DNA of 64,000 nucleotides from Loxodes magnus (lineage: Eukaryota > Ciliophora > Karyorelictea > Loxodida > Loxodidae). Below the pieces are notes generated by a model that saw nothing but the letters and a program-made list of their open reading frames with translations, had not been told where the DNA came from and did no database searches. The DNA is taken from assembly GCA_946699065.1 (NCBI GenBank), contig CAMPDV010000120.1, forward strand, positions 372,001 through 436,000, written 5' to 3'. Positions 7,860-64,000 of the stretch are shown here, in pieces (position 1 is the stretch's first letter; every line of letters begins with the position of its first letter). A program made the translations under genes and the position numbers.

Positions 7860-9390
7860 TGATTAATGAGAAAATTCAGTTTTTAACAAACACAAAAACT
7901 TGACTCAAGAATAGATTTATTTTAGAGCAAATCGATTTAGTTTGTAAAAATAATAATGAGATTCAAAAATTAACCGGATCTCTTCCATCAAAGGACAAGT
8001 AAGAACTGAGATAGAAATTCAGAACAGAAAGGTTAATACAGCTCTCAACACCTTCATTGAAAACTGAAAAAAAGAGATTACTCAATCGAATCGATAAAAA
8101 TAATAACGAAGAAATAAAAAATAAACGAAGAAGGTAAATTACGATAATTCAATATAGATCCTATTACCTTTGATTTAGACAATACTGAAATAGAATAAAT
8201 AGACTCTTAGTAGATGAAACAGCTGATTTATCAACTTATTAGAAACAAAAAATCTCGAAAAGGAATTAAACTCCCAGAAGGAAGAGATGCTTGTAATAAG
8301 TCAGGATTTGATAAATCATGAAGATGATGATGAAGTCCATATGTAGATCGAAGAGCTAAAGTCGGAGTTTATGAGCAAACTGCAAGTTTAGAGAATGATA
8401 TTTGAGTAATGCTAGAGCAAGACGAGAAAAATTGAGTAAAATTAGATTCTAGACTCAAATTAATAGAAGAAAACCTGTAGAAGCCTTCATAAGGAACTCC
8501 AATTGAAATAGAGAAATAAGAAAAGACATTTAATAAAGCAAGAAAAAGATGTTACATTTGCAACAGCACTTGCATTTATGGCGGAAATGTCCCCAATAGA
8601 AAAAAATAAGAATAAATATCTGGAGAAATGCTAACTAGTAGCAACTGAAGTATCGAGCGACGGAATTCTTCCAATCGGGAAATGGGAAAATCTGGAAAAA
8701 ATAAATTCTCAACTCAGATTATTCAAAAGATAGAAGTCAAGGAAAAAAGCAATGCAAGGAACGAACATGCAGGAACTGAGATTTTATGCCTTTAAAACTT
8801 CAATTAAGCCGGTAGGCGAATAGTTATTTTAATGATTAATGGGATTCAAAAACAACTACCTATACATTAATAACAATTCTAGCCTTTTTCTTTTAAAGAA
8901 ATCTAGCTAATTATATAAGATATACCTAGTGGCAAGGTAGCAGGTTCAAATTGCATTAAAGGTGAATTATTAAAATATGGAGAACATTATCTTACCTTAA
9001 TTCTTCACTATTTACTGAATAATATGCTGAGACTCGGAAGAATACCATATAAGATAAATACTTCAACTATTATTTCTATTTTAAAAAAAGGAAACGAAGA
9101 TTATTTAAAAAATTGAAGAGCTATTTCTCTAATAAACACAGTACTAAAATTATATGATAAAACCCTTACAAAGAGATTATATTATTTGATATAAGAAAGA
9201 AACTTAATAAATTAAAGTTAAATGGAACTTTTGAAAAGGAAATAAACAACAATGTAAATTTGCGTTCTTTTGTAACTAATAGACATGCTTCATAAATAAG
9301 CAAGGGGAAAATCAAATTACTAACAAATATACATGGATTAAATGCTCTATTTTATAGAGAGAAAATTACTCTTTGATTCACTAATTATTC
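7860..9390 (+). pseudogene. LINE remnant: CCHC knuckle plus reverse transcriptase, unit 1
   Basis: Non-LTR retrotransposon fragment on the plus strand. The first part (7860-8520) reads as broken, charged, coiled-coil-like segments. At 8541-8590 a zinc knuckle CYICNS then HLWRKCPQ gives C-x2-C-x4-H-x4-C after a frameshift. From about 8880 to 9385 one frame holds the fingers and start of the palm of a LINE reverse transcriptase: FSFKEIQ, IKGELLKYG, IPYKINTSTIISILKKGN, then KN-W-RAISL with Trp encoded by TGA, and LYDKTLTKRL. The motif A region is damaged (the D-x4-AFD core is not intact), and the catalytic YADD part is missing. It is inactive by this reading. The family is close to LINEs with an NYRPISL motif. 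Confidence 0.8.
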
Positions 9391-37304: not shown

Positions 37305-38125
37305 AAATAAAAAAATGGAAATGGAATAGAATATTCGACTATCTAAAAATTAGGCAAGGAACGCAAGAAGAAGAGCTAACAAAGAACTAGAGAAGAAGTA
37401 GAAATCAATGGAACACTTATCAAGCTCCTCTTCAGAAGGCAAAGTAATGGTTGGACAAGTTAATGAGAGCACTTCGCTTTCAATTGAAATGGAAAAGATG
37501 AAAAAATTAATTTCTAAATATGAAGAAGAAACATATAATCAAGGAGAAAGAATTAGAGAGCTTATGAATAACATTGAGGATCAAAATAACGAACTATTAA
37601 TTCTTAGGAAATAGCTTATATAAAACAATATTGTGACAGAACAATAGCTCTATACTCAGTCTTAAAATAATTTCAAACAAGGGGTAAACATGAGTATTGA
37701 AGTCCTCCCTTCTTAAGCAAAAGATTAAGAAATAAATAAAGAATAAAATGTTGATAAAAGTTTAATTAAAAGAATAGAACAAATAGAAAAATTAGTTTTG
37801 CCTTAGTTGAATAAAAAAAAATAGACAAAAAATTGTTGATGTTGTAAGTCGAAATATCACTTATTAAAAAATTGTTAAAAATGATAAAAATTGAAAAAAA
37901 GAGAAGAAATAAAAACATGAAAGATGTTAAACAAACTTTGAATAACCGACTCAGGAATTTACAAATAGAAATTATTTAGTGGTAACATGGAAAATTCATT
38001 GTGGTAGCCACCCACATTCAAAAAAAGGCCGTGGTATACATCCACGTTAAAAAAAAGGCGGAGCGAAATCGGTTGGAATCCCGAAGAACTCCAAAACTCT
38101 TAACATTTTAGTTTACATTATTATT
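37305..38125 (+). mobile_element. ORF1-only retroelement inserted in array unit 3
   Basis: An 821-bp insertion absent from units 1 and 2, flanked by an exact 15-bp target duplication, as expected for target-primed (non-LTR) retrotransposition. It starts AAATAAAAAAATGG, carries one coding frame (37315), then a 3' region with two short GC hairpins (GTGGTAGCCACCCAC at about 38000; CGTGGTATACATCCACG at about 38031), the motif GGTTGGAATCCC, and a (TTA)n tail. No reverse transcriptase is present, so it must have been mobilised by a partner, probably a LINE. It is younger than the array amplification or at least private to unit 3. Confidence 0.92.
37315..37941 (+). CDS. Retroelement ORF1-like protein: coiled coil plus CCHC knuckle
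   Basis: Starts at the first ATG, ten bases from the element's 5' end. In ciliate code the frame is open 174 codons to a TGA at 37837, but that TGA lies inside a zinc knuckle: Cys-Trp(TGA)-Cys-Cys, KSKY, His, LLKN, Cys, an exact C-x2-C-x4-H-x4-C. So it is read as Trp here, and the true stop is probably the TGA at 37918 or 37939 (the latter is used). N-terminal 30 residues are Arg/Lys-rich; residues ~65-110 (KMKKLISKYEEETYNQGERI) form coiled coil. The layout, basic region, coiled coil and knuckle, is that of LINE ORF1/gag-like nucleic-acid-binding proteins. No frameshift is seen, so it may be functional. Confidence 0.72.
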
Positions 38126-39360: not shown

Positions 39361-40052
39361 ATGGAAGTACACCAACAAACTCAGAAATGTGAAATTTGCT
39401 TCTTGGAATATGATTTTAGAGACAATATTCCCAAGTTACTACCCTGTGCATTGCTTATGTCATATATGCTTATAGGCTAGTTCAAAAATAAGGAACAATA
39501 AATTGAATGTCCTTTTTGTAAAAAGATAAACTAAATTGATATAAATGAGATTCCTATAATTTTCTAAATGATCGAAACTTAATACTCATGCTAAAATATT
39601 TAAAATTAAATTGAAGCGAAAAAAATTAAAGGCAAAATAATTAATACATGATCATCAGGACTTTTTGATTGCTTTAAAGATATAGAATCTATAACTTTTA
39701 TTTGTCCATATGTATCTAGTCTGTGATGGCAGGGGTTAAAATTTTACTAACTTAACTGAAAAAACAAACTAAAGCTTCAATATCTAACATGTTTGTTTCC
39801 TTGTGTTTTATTCTGTGTAGCCAGATATAAAATGAGAAAATAATTGGGCATAGAAGGAACATTATGTTAAGATATAATGGCTCATTGCTTATGTCACTGT
39901 TGTGCGCTTTATTAAGAAAATGAAAATGCATATAAATACTTTTTATAATAATAAGTATTAAAGCAAAAAAAATTTTTTCAACCAAATAGAAATTGAACAG
40001 TAGGACTATTTGAGTTCTTTAAAAGCCCTTATTAAATTTGCTCTTTTATATG
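39361..40052 (+). pseudogene. RING-PLAC8-PLAC8 protein, 5' part (broken)
   Basis: Starts ATG with MEVHQQTQKCEICFLEYDF, a RING beginning (C-x2-C). LLPC, HCLCHICLQ and IECPFCKKI complete a C3HC4 RING but need two frame changes between 39430 and 39520. From there one frame runs through to 40052: W-SSGLFDCFKDIES, KMRKQLGIEGTLCQD, IMAHCLCHCCALYQE, which is a PLAC8 Cys-rich domain, then W-TVGLFEFFKSPYQICSFI, the start of a second PLAC8 domain. The Trp that opens each PLAC8 domain is TGA. The gene is then cut by the retroelement at 40053-41035. RING suggests an E3 ligase; PLAC8 proteins are membrane-associated. The minus-strand standard ORF at 39752-39985 is a shadow. Confidence 0.7.
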
Positions 40053-44022: not shown

Positions 44023-47000
44023 TCACTACTCAATATAGGTCTTATCATGATCATTTGAATACTAAGACTCAGAAGATTTATCCAATTCCTTCACCTCTAA
44101 ATTTTAAAGGAAAAATTAGTTTTGAACTTCTTCTTAGTTCTTTTAGATTTAAATCTTAATATTTAGTTCGCTCTAAGCAGCTTAATGAGATACACTAGGA
44201 TCTTAATAAACTTTGACTAGATTAATTACATGCTTCCTTTTTATTTTTAATGGAGATTCTGCTACAAACTTAGTTGTTGACTTTTCATTAGTAGATTCTA
44301 GCTTATCCTCAAAGAGTTAATCTGCGTTAATTTTAAGACTAAAAGGTTACTATGGAAGAGAAGGAGATTTTGGGACGAATCCTCGCTAGACAAAAAAGGA
44401 GTTAGTTCGCATGTTGTTTTAGACATCAATTATCCCTTCCTTTATCAAATTGAAAATGTTTTGCTTAAAGATTTTTAATTCATCTTTAAAGATTTCTTTG
44501 CTTTTAATCTTATGTATATACTATCATTGAATCACCTCGTAAATTTGCATAGCTCCTCCTATAGAAATCATTATTCCTACTATTGATCCTATTAAAGCTT
44601 AGGCAAACTATAATAGAGAATATTTAGAACTTCTTAAAGTTTTTAGTCCACTTTCTAGAAGTTCTATTTTAAGCTCACTTCTAACACCTTCAGTTATAGT
44701 TATTTGCTAAGTTGTGAAAGTTGATCCTATTTCAATCTGTTCTTTGCTCATAAGATGAAAGCCTGTTTCTTCTCTCTTTTACCCGTAGTCTTCTTTGAAA
44801 ACTGAAGGAATTCCTATAACTGTCATTGCAGTTGGAGTAGGACCTCTAAATATTTTCCCCTAGGGTACAGAAACTTGCATTACAACTGTACTGAATTGAT
44901 TAGGAATTGAAGATGAAGAAGTAACATTAAATTCTATCCCACTTGCAAAACTTTTAGGTTCAAGAATCGTAAATGTTAGCACTGCATTTTATGTCATGCT
45001 ACACTTAGTAAAAATAACTTAAATATGGCAATTTTCGTTAACCTTTTTGCACGAAGTCTAGTAGCTATTATATTTCTTTTGCTCAGTATCTTTGAATGTT
45101 ATTTGATTAAAGTCTATTTAAAGAGACTCGACACACTCAGTTCAATCTGTTTGAGTTCTGTTAATTTTTAAATCCTTGATGCACTAACCTCCATACTAAA
45201 GGTATGTCAAAGTGAAATAGAAGTCAGCTGTTATAACCTTATAGCTTTCTAAGAGAATTAGATAGGGGATTAAGGCTTTAGTTTCTATAACATTATTGTA
45301 ATAGAATTGAATAAAGCTCAGGCAGATTATAATTACTGCTACAAATACGCATATTACTGTAAAGAACCCTCCTATTACTGTCTTTTTAGATTTGAGTACT
45401 TCTTGCTTATAGTTATGTTTCTTGTGATAGATATCTATTTTATATATCTTTTAGTATAATCTTTTAGAGCAGTAAATCAGGAAAAAGATTATGAAGAACG
45501 AGCCTGCTGTTATTATATAAATTAATTACTTTTTCTCGTTAAACTATTTGCTGTCTATTGAATAGCTTTCAGGCTAGCTAAAAGTTATTTAATTACTAAC
45601 TTCATAGATTTGAGGATATATAGATCCTATTGGACATTTTTCGAAAGTAGAACACTAGAAACACTCTGATAATCCTGAAGTTGGTCCATATGTACCTTCA
45701 TTGCATGAATCGCAGTATTTTTAATTCTAGGCAGCTTCTAGACTATTATAAGTTCCAGCGACACAAGGAATACAAGAACCATTTGAAGTTCAATAAGATC
45801 CTTTGCTGCATGTAGTGCAGTTACCGTTTTTACCTATAAAAGTTCCTTCACTGCATTTTCATCCACATTAGGAAACTGGACAGTCAAAAGTAAAAACATA
45901 GAATTAGTTTTAAGATTTTTAGATTTGTATAGACGACTTTGCAACTGCCACACCACCAAACATTATTATTTGTCTCTAATAAAATACCATACTCTGTCCC
46001 AATGCATAGCCTGGCCAACTTCTAGAGTTTTTATCTAAATTGTAAATTTTTATTAATCCAGAGTCTAAGTTCATTTCGATAAAGTTATCCTTTAAGAGAT
46101 CTCAGTATGCTCCTCCATATCAAACTATTTGGTTCTGTGAAGCTACTACTCCATATAAAGAAGCTGTATAGTATTCATCATAAGTCTTATTTATGAATCT
46201 CCATTTTTAAGTATCTAAGTTAAATTCATAGACAGCATCTGCAGGAGTTTTTGATACCTTTTCTCCTCCAATAACGTAGAATAATCTTCCATTTGCATGG
46301 GCATGGCAATATACTATTTCTTAAGGACCTTGCAGATCGTCAGAGGAAAGTAACTTTCACTTATAAGAGCTAAAGTTAAAGGAATACAATTCACTTGAAA
46401 TTCCACTTTAGCCCATTCCTCCATACACTAGGAATATGTTTCCTATAATAATTCCACAGCTTCCATACTTTCCAGAAGGACTATCTGAAAAATATTCTTG
46501 GATAGATCAGCTCATAGTTAGAGAATTAAATAAATACATACTGCTTAAAATTTCATTATTGTAACCTAGCCCACCTCAAATTACTAAGTACTTGCCATGA
46601 ACTGCTGCCGCATGCTTACTTCTTGATTAAGGAACATTTCCCTTAATATTAGGCTATCACCATTTTCACTTCTTCAAATCGAAAATCCAAATTTCGTTAT
46701 TTCTTGCTGAGTTATGCTCTCCTCCAAAAACTATCATTGAAGTAGAAATTATGCTAGCAGAATGAAAAGCCCGAGGTTCTGGAGTATCCATAACAGGGTA
46801 TAATGGTTCTCATTTTAGGTTTTTTTTTGTTATATTTAATTTAATAACATCATTTTTGCATCCATATTAACTTCAGCCAGAAAATAAATAAAAGCAATTC
46901 TTATGAAATCCTACTATGGCGTTGTCTCTTTCACTAATTTCAGGATTCTCAATTTCTAAACGTTTCCATGTTAGTCTATCTAGATTACTTATATCTAAAT

Positions 47001-47844
47001 AAAAGCTTTAGTTTATATCATGATAAAGATAGAAATTTCAACCTTAAAAGAAATACCAGCGCTATTAGCTTAAATCTGCTCAATCTCCATTGAGATAGGT
47101 ATAAGTTGGATAATCTCCATATACTTCTTTTCTTTACCAAACTCCTGTGGAAAGATTCAATAGGTACATGTATTAATCATTTTAAGAAAGGTCATAGTCT
47201 CCATTTTTAAGTAGTAATTATCCATTGAGATATAATAAATTAGGAGAACGCATTTTAATAGGCTTCTATCCTTTAGTTATAATATGCCTGAATCTTCAAT
47301 TCGAGAATGATAATTCTCAGAGCTCATTTGTATAGTGTTCTTATCCCATACCACCAAAAATAAGCATTTTCCAGTCTTAGCTTTCTTCATCTTTATAAGT
47401 TGTGCATCCCATTTTTTTAGCAGGAGGAGGAGATTCGCCTGTGACTAAAATCTGAGTTCAATATTGGTAATCTATATTGAAGATTCAAAGGTCATTTTGG
47501 TTTCCTTTCTAAGTTTATCCTCCATAAAGAATAAACAAATTGCGCTCTTCTATCTTAGAAGTACAGGGACTTGTTCTAGCTTCAGGTGCCATAGCATTAG
47601 TAAGAGTCATTCGAGTCCACTTAAGATTTTCATATGTAAACTTCCAAGTATCATCTAGCATTTACGTGTTTGACATTCCATGAGTAATAATTAAGAACTA
47701 ATCATAAAATTACTAGCCGCTACTTCAATATCGTGCTTGAGGTGGCGTTCCACTATAGGGAAACATAGATCATTCCGATTAAGTAAATTGTATAATTAAT
47801 AGTACAATGAAGGGTATTAAGTCTTACATCATACACTATTTCAT
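44023..47844 (-). CDS. Kelch-repeat / Cys-rich multi-pass membrane protein
   Basis: Intact 1273-residue frame in which TAA/TAG are Gln and about 20 TGA are Trp. It starts MKQCMMQDLIPF with a signal peptide (to about residue 23). Residues ~25-645 are Kelch-type repeats with MLIFGGMG, MIVFGGEH, LFYVIGG and IIMFGGV blades; Trp before the blade turn is TGA in SSYK-W-KLL and TGG in DTQK-W-RFI, proving TGA as Trp. Residues ~650-745 are Cys-rich with CSEGTF, CTTCSKGSY, CIPCVAGTY (ephrin-receptor/GCC-like). TM segments lie at ~773-795, ~822-848 and ~1076-1100, followed by a hydrophilic tail. The stop is TGA at 44023, directly after a TAG. Probably a surface or secretory-pathway receptor-like protein of a family common in ciliates. 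The plus ORF at 47464 and minus ORF at 47753 are a shadow and a fragment. Confidence 0.92.
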
Positions 47845-50815: not shown

Positions 50816-52254
50816 GGTGGTTTTAAAGAATATAATTATATAATAAATGCTTATAATTTTAGATTTAAATTACATCATAATAATTATTTTCTCTACTTCT
50901 ACTTTTTCTTTTTTCTGAAGAATCTCTTATTTAATTTATTTCTAAACTTTATATTAATTTTAAGTTAAAATAAAAATGAGAAATTAGTATTTTCTTTAAT
51001 TAATGGAATGAATGAAAAGATGAAATTTTATATGAAAAAATTTGAAATATAAAGGAAAGGAAAAATAAAATAAAATAAAAAATAAGATAAGAAGTTTCCT
51101 TAGGTACTCAAAAAAGAATCATATTTACTAAGAAAGCTTTGAAATAAAAATATTTACTAGCTATTCTTTCAAATTCGAACAAGTTGATCTTCCAATATTA
51201 TTGTTTTAAGAATTAAATTTTTATACAGTTATTATATTTCTTACTTTTATTATTCATAAAATATAAAACTTAGAATCAAAAAAGCTTAGCTTTAATATAG
51301 CTAATTCATTTCCTAAATTAAAATAGATTAGTTAGATATTTAATCTTTTTGTTAATGCTTGAAGTTATTTTTGATCCTAATTACGTAAAAATCTATGATA
51401 TCAAATTAAAAAAATTAACGATATCTGATAATACTTTATTTAACTATCTTAAGATTAAAAATATTTTTCTTTATTTATGTTTTTTTGTCAAAAAAAACAA
51501 AAAAATTTAAATTTACACTTAATCATTAAAATTAGTAATCTTTTTAATGTAAATTTCTAATTTATATAATAGAAATAAAAATAAACTAAAAGTTTTAGAA
51601 ATTTTATTTTAACAAAATAAAATTTTTAACTTCATAAGATATCTACAAAATTTACTAAAATAAAAAATAATTTCCTTAATAAAATACTTATTTTTAAATG
51701 ATTAGTTTAAAACTAAAATTCCTAAAATTCATTAAATCATTTTTTTATTTTTCGCTATTATTTTTAAATTTTCATAAGTTTACTTAAAAAAAGAATATTG
51801 AAAATAAAGTAAATAAAATGCTCTTCTGTTTTAAAATAGAAAATTTGTTAAAAAATTGTCAAAGATTTTATATCTATATGTAATTTTTTTCTCGAAAGTT
51901 TTTAACTTTAACTTTCTTTACATTTTTTTATTTAGATAAAATTAAAATAATATAAAGAAAATATATTTTAAATTTAGATATTTTTTTTAATTTAAAATAA
52001 ATTCAGTATTTTAGCTTTTTTTCAATTTTACAATTTTTAATTTTTTTTCATTATATTTTATATTTTATTGAAGGATTCTATGCATTTTCAATTATTTGCC
52101 AAATTTTTCAAAATCTCTAAAAATATTTATTTTGTGTTAATTTTTTAAAACAATTAACTTTTTTATTTATTATTTAAAATCAAATTTACTGTTTCCATAC
52201 AATTTAAATTTTAATGGACTATGAATATATTTAATTTTTTAATTATTAAGTTTT
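50816..52254. other. Extremely AT-rich intergenic region
   Basis: Long A and T runs with very few G or C, especially 51450-52230. No gene. It separates the dispersed element from the convergent end of the kinase pseudogene and probably includes its 3' flank. Confidence 0.6.
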
Positions 52255-53714
52255 AAGAGTATTGGCTTTCTCATCTTGATCTTCTCCACTTTCTTATTGT
52301 GCTATCCTCCACTACTGATACTATCAATTCATTATCGTTACTCAATGTCGCAATTAAAATATCATACTCATGGCCTTGTAAAGTTTATAAGCATTAATCT
52401 GTATTAAAGTTCCAAATCTTGATTGTCTTTTCCTTAGAGCTAGATACTATAAAGTTTTAATTGAGACTTATTTGAATACTCTAAACATGGCCTGAATGGC
52501 CTAAAGATCCCAAACACATTTTCCAGTTGAAAAGTTCTATATATTTATTGTCTTATCATAATTTCCAGATACGATTCATTTTAGATCAATCGTTAAAGAT
52601 ACTAATCAAACCACACTTTACTGTCCCTACAAAGCTCTCTTACAAATCTAAACTTAGAAGTCTCATATCTTTATAGTATTATCACCACTTCCTGAGACGA
52701 TTTATTCAAAGTCTGGAGTAATGACGACTGAACTGATGAAATTAGAATGACCTTATAATTCTTAGTCTGTATATTAAGAATTACCTTAAATATATAAAAT
52801 TTCCTATTTCGTTAAGACTAAAGTTGATGCTTTATTTTCTTCTTAAAATTTAAAATTTCCACCTTATGATTAAATATTTTCAAGAGATGCGTTTAATTTA
52901 GCTGTTTTAGTTATTGCTATAAGATGCTTTGAAATACATTTTGAATATTTTCTATTTTTTTCTTTCAGCTTGATTTTATAATCAGCATCTTTGAATTAAA
53001 TTCTGATATTTTTAGGATACTATTCAGTTATTTCTTCTCTTTCTCCTGCTTTCACCCTCTCTTTTATAAACTTGTCATCTGCCTTCTAAAAAGGTACTTT
53101 TGCGCCTTTATTTCCCAAAAGATAGCACCCAATGCAAATATGTCGGATTACTTGCTGAATTTTGAATTTTCGCACATGTGTTCAGGAGCCATTCAACGGA
53201 AATTTCTCACCTCTTATATATTCATTTGATATTTCTATTCAGTTTCACTCTTGATAACTGAAATTCGTAATTTTAGCTCTTAAATTATTATCTAGCAATA
53301 TGCTATTACTTTTTAGATTTCTATGGATAATATTTTTTTCGTGTATATAATTTAGATCTAAAACAATGTCCAAACTAATTTAGTAGCGTAATTTCCAATT
53401 CAAATCTTTAGAACTATTTAATAAGTTTAGTAAACTTTACGGTAATAATTCAAATACTAAGCATAAAGGAGTTTAGCAATATCCATATACTGTTATTATA
53501 TTCGAATGTCTAATTTTCTAAGTCGTTGCTATTTCATTTTCCATTTCTTGTTTGGCTAACTGAGTTATATTTTGGTTATAAAACTCTTTGATCGATTCTT
53601 AGATGTTTCCTTTTATTAAACCCTTACCACTCCAAAATCTCCATTAGCTATTACCTCTAACTTTTAAAGCTCAGAGATTTAGATAATACAATCCTGATTT
53701 ATTGTCTCATCCAT
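52255..53714 (-). pseudogene. Protein kinase-WD40 fusion, frameshifted and catalytically dead
   Basis: Minus strand from MDETINQDC. A glycine loop (NGDFGVV), then after a frame change QEMENEIATTQKIRHSNIIT, LVFELLP, YIHEKNIIHRNLKSNSILLD, KITNFSY, and after another change RNFRWMAPEHM and SDIFALGAIFWEIK: the order and motifs of a tyrosine-kinase-like kinase. HRD is HRN and DFG is NFS, so both catalytic aspartates are lost. C-terminal are WD40 repeats: ELQGHSNFISSVVITPDFEQ, NTIKI-W-DF with Trp from TGA, IVSGNYDKTINIQNF, then after a further shift GHSGHVQSIQIS and KTIKIWNF, GHEYDIL. At least three or four frame changes make it a pseudogene; introns are an alternative but no clear GT-AG pair fits them. 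Confidence 0.8.
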
Positions 53715-57257: not shown

Positions 57258-57878
57258 ATGGAAAGCTTATGTGAGTGGAGCGAAACTAAAAATTAAATGT
57301 TGTACTGTCAAGTTTACAAAACTTATATATGCGCTTAGGATCTGAATATCTGTTTTACACTTGCGAAAGATCATAGTGGGGAAGAAATTAATCCTATTAG
57401 TTAGATCTAGAAAGAATCAATGGAAATAGTTGTGCTGGCATTATCAGGAAAGAAAATAAGATTAGTTGTATTTCCTTTTGATAGAATTTCGAAAGTAAAA
57501 ACATTAATCCAAGATAAGGAAGGAACTCCGACAGGTTATCAGAGATTATTATTTGGTCAAAAACAATTAGAAGATGGAAGAACATTATCTGATTATAATA
57601 TATAGAGAGAATCAACTATTAACTTAGCTCTAAAAATAAGTGGTGGCATGTAAATATTTGCTATAACTCTAACTGGTAAAATGATTACATTAGATGTAGA
57701 ACCTTCAGATTCCATAGAAGACGTCAAATTAAAAATTTAAGATAAAGAAGGAATTCTTCCAGCATAATAGAGGCTAATTTGAGCAGGAAAATAGTTAGAA
57801 GTTGGAAGAACTTTATCTGATTATAAGATATAGAAAGAAGAAACTATTCATATAATTCTAAAACTGAGAGGTTGCTGA
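57258..57878 (+). CDS. Divergent two-unit polyubiquitin-like protein
   Basis: 206 residues. The last 152 are two ubiquitin units of exactly 76 residues. Unit [21 protein letters not shown] ... [23 protein letters not shown], ending KISGG. Unit [21 protein letters not shown] ... [19 protein letters not shown] (Trp from TGA where ubiquitin has Phe), [13 protein letters not shown], ending KLRGC and TGA. The final Gly76 is Cys, so unit B could not be conjugated in the usual way. Upstream, an in-frame ATG gives 54 extra residues ending IQKES directly before unit A, looking like the rest of a partly deleted earlier unit; the start could instead be the unit A Met at 57420. Ubiquitin is nearly invariant in most eukaryotes, so this is a divergent paralogue. 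The overlapping minus ORF at 57397 is a shadow. Confidence 0.8.
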
Positions 57879-62460: not shown

Positions 62461-63062
62461 GATTAAAAGATATATAACCCTTTCACTTAAATACATACTT
62501 TTAGCATAATCCCAGTTATATTTTACCTATTAATTTATCTTTCCAAAAACATTCACTTTAGTGGCATTTCGAACTTTAATAGTTCACTTTATTTGTTTTG
62601 AAAATTTTACAAATAGAGAACCTTAACCATATTAGTCTTTCCATTTAAGATCCCAAAAAAGATAAGTTTAAGGTATATTTAACATCCTTCAGAATATTTA
62701 CATTTGTCATTTATTTTATATGATAAACCAGTCCTATCATATTTTACGTAAGCTTATTAAGATAATTTTAAAGTAGAAACTTATCCCTAATGATTATCCA
62801 CACTCATGCATCTATAATATCACTATTTTTAAAACCTATAAAATCAATCTAAAGCCTTGAACTGAGTTATCATTATCCAAATATACAAGCTACTTATTAT
62901 AAATGCTTAAACGATTATAGGATGATCCTCTTTTAAAGTTAAAGTCTAAGTCACAAGCATAATTATTTAAGATATAACTTCATCACTAAAAGTATAATTT
63001 TTATCATAAATTACAATGTAAGAAAAAGGTATAAAAGGAGAAGCTTAGCTAAAATAATTATA

Positions 63063-64000
63063 ATGTATTAATTTAGTAGAAGGAAGAGCAAAATTCTTCA
63101 ACTAAACGTGATTGAAAACTAGGTTTTATATAAGCCTGTTCTTCATAATATTCATCCTCAAGCTGGTTAAAACTTGATCAAGTTCAATAGTAGTCTGTAG
63201 CCGAACTTACTGTTTTTAAGGGAAAAAGCATAAAATTAGGATGCGTTATAATAAGTATTTAGCTTTTTAAGTATATGTGATATAGCCTAAGTATCTAGAG
63301 TATGTAAAGAATGATACTCACTATCTTGAAAATAAAGTATATGGTTTGAAAAAATACAAAGGGCTTACTCTATTAAGCATTTAATTCCTTATTTGATTGA
63401 GTGGATGGGAAACACTAGTTCCAATTTAGATTAGAAAGTTTAGAGATACTTCTGAGAAATAATCAATACACAGAAAACTCCTTTAAATCACCCAAAAGAG
63501 ATTTATTACATTTTCTCCTAAATATCTTGTAAAAGCTGCTAAACAATAGACAGCACACTCAGGCTAATTCCAGTCTTAAACTTTGTCTTGTGCTATAAAT
63601 GTAGATCTTAGGAAGAAAATTACAAGTTAATAAGCAAGGAAGAGATCTTAGGACTATAGCCATTGAACTAGTTCGAGTTTGAATGAATGGATTTACAGCC
63701 AGTGAACTAGTTCGAGTTTGAATGAATGGATTTACAGCCAGCTTAAGATCTTGAACAAGTTTAAAAATAAAAGAATGAAGAATGTTTCTTTTATGGATAG
63801 GTAAAAAAAGCCTTAGCTAAACTTAATGAGTTTCTAAAAATGTAATTCTTGAAAGTTCTTTTTAAAGAAGATAAAGGAGATTAAATTCCTTTCAATTATG
63901 CATTAGAAATTGCTTAAGTTTTGAACTGGAACAGATCTTCTGAAGAAAGAAAGTTATAGTAAAACGCAGTCATCAATTACTTGCTATTTAATAACTCTTA
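63063..64000 (+). CDS. F-box protein with XPA-like C4 zinc motif (3' end beyond window)
   Basis: Uninterrupted frame from ATG (MYQFSRRKSKILQLN) to the window edge, >312 residues. Residues ~60-85 are an F-box: VFSFLSICDIAQVSRVCKEW, with that Trp and the next one from TGA. Residues ~155-180 give CKSC, 17 residues, CYKC, then RSQEENYKLISKEE, the spacing and following motif of the XPA/Rad14 zinc finger. Next is a perfect in-frame duplication of 13 residues (NQFEFEWMDLQP core), then NEECFFYGQVKKALAKLNEF and a helical region with LEIAQVLNWNRSSEERK. F-box proteins bring substrates to SCF ubiquitin ligases; the zinc motif may bind nucleic acid or protein. Five TGA serve as Trp in this part. No frameshift seen. 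The F-box is confident, the XPA resemblance less so. Confidence 0.8.
63660..63737 (+). repeat. 39-bp tandem duplication inside the F-box gene
   Basis: Two head-to-tail copies, 63660-63698 and 63699-63737, differing at one base (Leu versus Val codon). The length is 13 codons, so the frame is kept and the protein gains one extra copy of an acidic/aromatic peptide. Confidence 0.95.

Follow-up and report, generated by a model that had tools for sequence, protein, structure and literature searches.

The window, a stretch of 64,000 nucleotides of Loxodes magnus DNA that forms part of contig C120, holds a Kelch-repeat gene in which the three standard stop codons, TAA, TAG and TGA, all serve as sense codons, and TGA serves as the stop as well. 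The gene is read in a single frame of 1274 codons on the minus strand, from an ATG at 47844 to a terminal TGA at 44025..44023. It contains 22 TGA (21 internal and the terminal one), 42 TAA, 24 TAG, 10 TGG, 22 CAA and 4 CAG codons. An initial annotation, which left the strand unstated, had counted about 20 TGA in it, had placed its end, and that of a ubiquitin gene, at TGA, and had read all three codons as sense, with TGA meaning both tryptophan (Trp) and stop; the residue-swap, glutamine (Gln) and gene-end tests described below confirm that reading. Masking TAA, TAG and TGA as X does not abolish the match to structurally characterised Kelch-repeat proteins (best E 8.3e-21), so that its frame and identity are independent of the code assumed. 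Translated with table 27 of the National Center for Biotechnology Information (NCBI), it matches the Pfam model PF24681 with 298 bits and seven further Kelch-type models more weakly. A cysteine-rich stretch follows the Kelch repeats, with a weak match to Ephrin_rec_like that falls below the cut-off of that model. At the stop (44023..44025, minus strand), the guanine and cytosine (GC) content is 30% in the 60 bases before and 15% in the 60 bases after.

On most of the Kelch models, Trp is the best fit for TGA. Codon 496 is the TGA of SSYK-TGA-KLL, whose counterpart reads DTQK-TGG-RF, as the initial annotation had described. For a residue swap, every TGA in the first 660 codons was set to one of 19 residues (proline left out) or to X, and the protein was scored against five Kelch models. 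Trp was best on three of the five, the strongest included, with 302.2 bits on PF24681 (runner-up isoleucine 273.2, X 255.0), 128.5 on Kelch_3 (histidine 114.4) and 108.9 on Kelch_HCF (phenylalanine 106.6), and it came second on the remaining two.

Both meanings of TGA meet in a di-ubiquitin-like gene of 153 codons on the plus strand (57420..57878). A sense TGA at codon 121 (57780..57782) lies in the second ubiquitin unit, and a stop TGA at codon 153 (57876..57878) follows 32 codons later, with a GC content of 26.7% before it and 10% after. All seven TAA or TAG codons aligned with ubiquitin fall on Gln sites. The first unit of this gene is strongly diverged, and the C-terminus of the whole gene product reads LRGC instead of LRGG.

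When a codon-usage scan was trained on the Kelch gene, it picked out few further stretches; other genes of the window were therefore read around the motifs named in the initial annotation. A gene with a RING-like part (by eye) and PLAC8 lies at 39361..39996 on the plus strand. The proposal that a TGA-encoded Trp opens both of its PLAC8 domains holds for the codons themselves, at 39649 and 39994, but Pfam supports the first domain only, the second being recognised by eye alone; the motif CALYQE, named as an example of TAA or TAG at a Gln position, is at 39901. A kinase-like and WD40 stretch occupies 52230..53700 on the minus strand, with the TGA of NTIKI-TGA-DF at 52665..52663, and an F-box stretch spans 63030..63479 on the plus strand, with KE-TGA from 63306 and the TGA of VCKE-TGA at 63312. 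Two further plus-strand motifs were read by eye, a zinc-knuckle start Cys-TGA-Cys-Cys at 37834..37845 and the reverse-transcriptase motif N-TGA-RAISL at 9111..9131, which has a repeat copy from 24947; the WD40, F-box, zinc-knuckle and reverse-transcriptase sites all read as originally described. The Pfam alignments suggested as a check on these genes matched Kelch, PLAC8, WD40 and F-box, with Trp best in most swaps. For PLAC8 and F-box the rivals were phenylalanine, cysteine and X only, and Trp led in both, with 51.8 bits for PLAC8 (phenylalanine 49.6, X 47.9, cysteine 47.1) and 37.2 for the F-box-like model (phenylalanine 36.4, X 30.1, cysteine 29.9); on the WD40 stretch, where X was the only rival, the Pfam WD40 model gave Trp 48.1 and X 33.5 bits. 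Positions 1-37000 of the window include a 15.84-kilobase (kb) unit that contains the reverse-transcriptase motif and is arranged head to tail, with two complete copies and an incomplete third; the copies are 99-100% alike where 300-base pieces were compared.

Beyond the window, genes were taken from the 705.7-Mb assembly (705,730,643 bases). The actin-type sample comprised 15 genes, chosen from 96 matches for their mutual difference, and the Ras-type sample the best 60 of 150 ranked matches, of which 20 include the domain and 40 cover just the C-terminal end; 23 whole genes (12 actin-type, 11 Ras-type) were read in one frame. These 23 genes hold 16 internal TGA, and 11 of the 16 stand, as read by eye, at Trp columns: five at actin Trp columns, numbered W79 (three genes), W86 and W340, two at the Trp of WDTAGQE in Rabs, and four opposite TGG of paralogs or relatives. 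In the 20 Ras-type genes that include the domain, the WDTAGQE Trp is written TGG in 14, TGA in 4 and as another residue in 2. These counts, and residue-swap results that go beyond chance, support TGA as a Trp codon within genes.

The same motif informs on the other two codons. Of the 20 genes, 17 write the WDTAGQE Gln as TAA or TAG and 2 as CAA or CAG, and 1 has methionine there. In one of the two eRF1 genes described below (L004), 9 of 20 aligned TAA or TAG codons stand opposite Gln of the human protein, a 9.8-fold excess over expectation (P 9e-8). Together with the di-ubiquitin sites, these Gln tests, which go beyond chance, support TAA and TAG as Gln codons, as the initial annotation had it.

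That TGA also ends genes is supported by 55 genes whose ends could be placed by homology, 50 of them at TGA. Among the actin-type genes, 12 of 15 have TGA directly after the conserved C-terminus, and two Arp1-type genes have TAA there; the remaining gene (L084) meets a TGA but was left out, its end not being conserved. Among the Ras-type genes, a Cys end was recognised in one of three frames in 41 of 60, leading to TGA in 38 and to TAA in 3, and 19 could not be placed. Two of the 38 carry TAG just before the TGA. In the 50 TGA-ended genes, GC content is 32.2% over the 60 bases ahead of the stop and drops to 19.8% over the 60 that follow, and base composition thus becomes like that of an untranslated region (UTR) at the terminal TGA; the published values for L. 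magnus are 33.5% for coding sequence and 18.6% for the 3' UTR, and the UTRs have a mean length of 53 base pairs (bp) (PMC11441545). No TGA occurs among the final 1000 codons of these 50 genes, and the sense TGA closest to a stop are 32 codons away, in the ubiquitin gene, and then 36 and 39 codons away, in actins.

Several observations nevertheless speak against so simple an account. Trp came second in the Kelch swap on ATRN-LZTR1 (valine 188.3, Trp 172.6) and on Kelch_4 (cysteine 99.2, Trp 95.5), and PF24817 scored X (42.9) above Trp (35.6) on the WD40 stretch. The sense TGA of the di-ubiquitin gene falls on the Phe45 site, and a gene on C2 that we take to be Pelota-like has a TGA at a site that is presumably asparagine in relatives. 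In the best alignment of the masked Kelch protein with a Protein Data Bank (PDB) structure, read by eye, the seven TGA inside are opposite Trp at two (345, 496), phenylalanine at one (423) and other residues at four (324, 393, 396, 446). In the actin- and Ras-type genes, 5 of the 16 TGA are off Trp columns, at tyrosine in three (close paralogs), threonine in one and glycine in one. The claim that TGA stands where protein families require Trp is thus good for many sites but not for all: the share is 11 of 16 for the actin- and Ras-type genes and 2 of 7 for the Kelch alignment. When the 23 whole genes are taken by themselves, TGA is not significantly depleted ahead of the stop (0/460 in the last 20 codons versus 16/6373; Fisher P 0.62). 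Finally, a strict table 27 does not allow the five apparent TAA ends.

These five ends bear on a code resembling table 28, that of Condylostoma, in which TAA, TAG and TGA would each both encode amino acids and end genes. In each of the five, TAA sits at the exact protein end defined by homology: in the Ras-type genes CNC-TAA (L113; the similar L099 has CNC-TGA), CLIF-TAA (L109) and CCN-TAA (L126), and in the Arp1-type genes KTF-TAA (L082) and KTC-TAA (L083), the best PDB Arp1 chain for L082 stopping at the same KTF. On a composition score trained on the 50 TGA-ended genes (median log-odds +9.1 for coding sequence and -10.7 for UTR), the sequence after TAA is UTR-like in four of the five (-17.1, -17.3, -10.6 over 27 bases only, and -11.9), whereas L083 is undecided (-1.2). 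By plain counts, TAA is scarce among the final 20 codons of the 23 whole genes (3/460 versus 145/6373) and TAG is not (16/460 versus 79/6373). A similar depletion of UGA and UAA, not of UAG, over about 20 codons before the stop has been published for L. magnus, with UGA still named the sole stop (PMC11441545). On the other side, TGA accounts for 50 of the 55 placed ends and TAG for none, in what is not a full survey; TAA stands one or two codons ahead of the TGA in three genes (CC-TAA-N-TGA, CC-TAA-TGA and CC-TAA-F-TGA), as if read through; it is not scarce near the ends of the 50-gene set (23/1000, although some windows may cross introns); and the five candidates were chosen by eye from printed frames. 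On balance we regard a full table 28-like code as unlikely, and a tally of 50 TGA, five apparent TAA and no TAG makes the initial wording, table 27 or nearly table 28, an apt one. An intron behind the CNC-TAA of L113 was considered and rejected, because the fitting GT-AG stretch would, by eye, delete the Cys motif kept in L099. A karyorelict paper of 2022 reportedly suggested in its abstract that UAA may be the stop in a small minority of transcripts; the TAA ends seen here are therefore support for that suggestion and not a discovery. UAA may serve as a minor stop in certain genes.

The initial annotation had recommended a look for a suppressor-like transfer RNA (tRNA); the search for Trp-tRNA led to Trp-tRNA(CCA) genes with an unpaired 27-43 position in two tandem arrays. 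Three earlier Trp-tRNA patterns that assumed A after the anticodon returned chance matches and a Gly-tRNA(UCC), and no Trp-tRNA; a pattern with G37 matched 144 places, against 3 for the control, with some chance matches among the first 100 listed. The array on C67 (481800-491700; L050) advances in steps of about 188 bases and holds 48 Trp-tRNA(CCA) genes, 47 intact and one broken, with anticodon-stem halves ATCGA and TCGAC and therefore A27.C43. The array on C148 (154800-174600; L051, L054) advances in steps of about 241 bases, with stem halves TTCGA and TCGAC and U27.C43; 67 genes were counted in the 19.8 kb read, 66 of which share one orientation and make up the array. In both, pair 27-43 is unpaired, leaving an anticodon stem of 4 bp. 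Over array units selected by a 15-base core within the tRNA, 47 on C67 and 63 on C148, the aligned tRNA shows no substitution, with two gap cells on C67, and the spacers vary (629 differing cells on C67 and 27 on C148). Trp-tRNA(CCA) with a normal 5-bp stem was matched at three places, all on C110, two of which were checked as tRNA genes.

Genes for Gln-tRNAs are also numerous. Among 100 places listed of 370, the anticodon is UUA at 78 and UUG at 22, and Gln-tRNA(CUA) is absent from the same 100. On C214 (232598-237570), 19 consecutive Gln-tRNA(UUA) places are spaced about 275 bases apart. A Gln-tRNA(UUA)-like gene at 1473-1545 of L058 has an extra A in the anticodon loop, for which ARAGORN calls a four-base anticodon; this could be a sequencing error. 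Another tRNA gene, found among 63 scored of 42786 candidates, lies in regular arrays on C78 (681122-688206; step about 1753 bases), C103 (669738-672972; step 527 bases) and C158 (171420-182004; step about 1752 bases). An exclusive tie between tRNA arrays and the reading of UGA was accordingly ruled out, as other tRNAs, Gln-tRNA(UUA) included, are also present in many copies and in arrays.

That a distinct suppressor tRNA with a UCA anticodon, and not Trp-tRNA(CCA), might read TGA appears improbable to us, although no search aimed at UCA-anticodon genes was made: the abundant Trp-tRNA(CCA) genes carry the 4-bp stem, which strongly increases UGA readthrough in reporters (PMC13092985). Still less credible is the notion that the TGA-rich frames are pseudogenes or interrupted by introns and that TGA is solely a stop, for although AT-rich DNA gives frequent chance TGA (the five alternative frames across the Kelch gene hold 17 to 40 each), the frame is kept in actins, Rabs and the 3.8-kb Kelch gene with many TGA at Trp columns, the residue swaps favour Trp, and the published introns, of mean length 19.3 bp, are relatively depleted of lengths divisible by three and would usually break the frame (PMC11441545).

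Two closely similar eRF1 genes (L003, L004) lie 35 kb apart on C196. Neither has an internal TGA, both end at TGA, and full-length eRF1 is present. The initial annotation had also proposed a look for changes in eRF1; relative to the human protein, DEFGTASNIKS becomes DAHGRAQNIKS and YLCDNKF becomes FLCENTF, and no role is assigned to these changes; a passage of Swart 2016 states that single eRF1 changes do not track codes.

Taken together, the sequence evidence makes it highly probable that the window is karyorelict nuclear DNA, very probably of Loxodes magnus, read under table 27, in which TAA and TAG stand for Gln and TGA stands for Trp within a gene and for stop where the gene ends. The likely mechanism is as follows. 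A Trp-tRNA with the ordinary CCA anticodon, in which the unpaired top pair of the anticodon stem leaves 4 bp in place of 5, would read UGA besides UGG, and a Gln-tRNA with anticodon UUA would read UAA and, probably by wobble, UAG. eRF1 would still recognise UGA and, to a small extent, UAA, but would prevail only close to the 3' end of a message, where there is a short UTR and proteins bound to poly(A) lie nearby. We infer that these codons are read by the unpaired Trp-tRNAs and by Gln-tRNA(UUA), and that proximity to the 3' end determines which of the two meanings applies. A further step, on which we see the scales as level, is that the UGA-reading Trp-tRNA would be the standard form in this genome (two unpaired arrays, with at least 110 genes against 3) and UAA a real minor stop in Rab-type and Arp1 genes, giving two dual-meaning stops whose meaning would be set by distance from the 3' end. 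Dual-meaning stop codons show that codon reassignment is possible without a lethal intermediate, and the window offers a textbook case in a single ubiquitin gene, where TGA is an amino acid and then, 32 codons on, a stop. The published 3'-end-distance model can be tested on concrete genes from this genome, namely the conserved genes with a possible UAA stop and the two arrays of unpaired Trp-tRNAs.

The core finding, a table 27 code in Loxodes, is already known, because the published somatic assembly of L. magnus (706 Mbp), with its short UTRs, uses that table (PMC11441545). With table 27, as in Loxodes and Parduczia, the genome of the window shares TAA and TAG as Gln, TGA as Trp or stop, and AT-rich sequence right after the stop; it differs in that a few genes look TAA-ended. 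With table 28, as in Condylostoma magnum, it shares the sense use of all three codons inside genes and TGA as a stop, whereas TAG is absent from the placed ends and TAA ends are few. No paper on Trp-tRNA arrays in Loxodes was found in the literature searched, the main text of PMC11441545 contains no word beginning with 'tRNA', and no priority is claimed. Trp-tRNA(CCA) with a 4-bp anticodon stem has been reported for Blastocrithidia, Condylostoma, Blepharisma, Loxodes and Amoebophrya (PMC13092985, PMC12005148). The genes described here resemble the reported forms in the CCA anticodon and the unpaired top pair of the stem, and differ in that two unpaired versions, A27.C43 and U27.C43, are present, each in a tandem array of its own.

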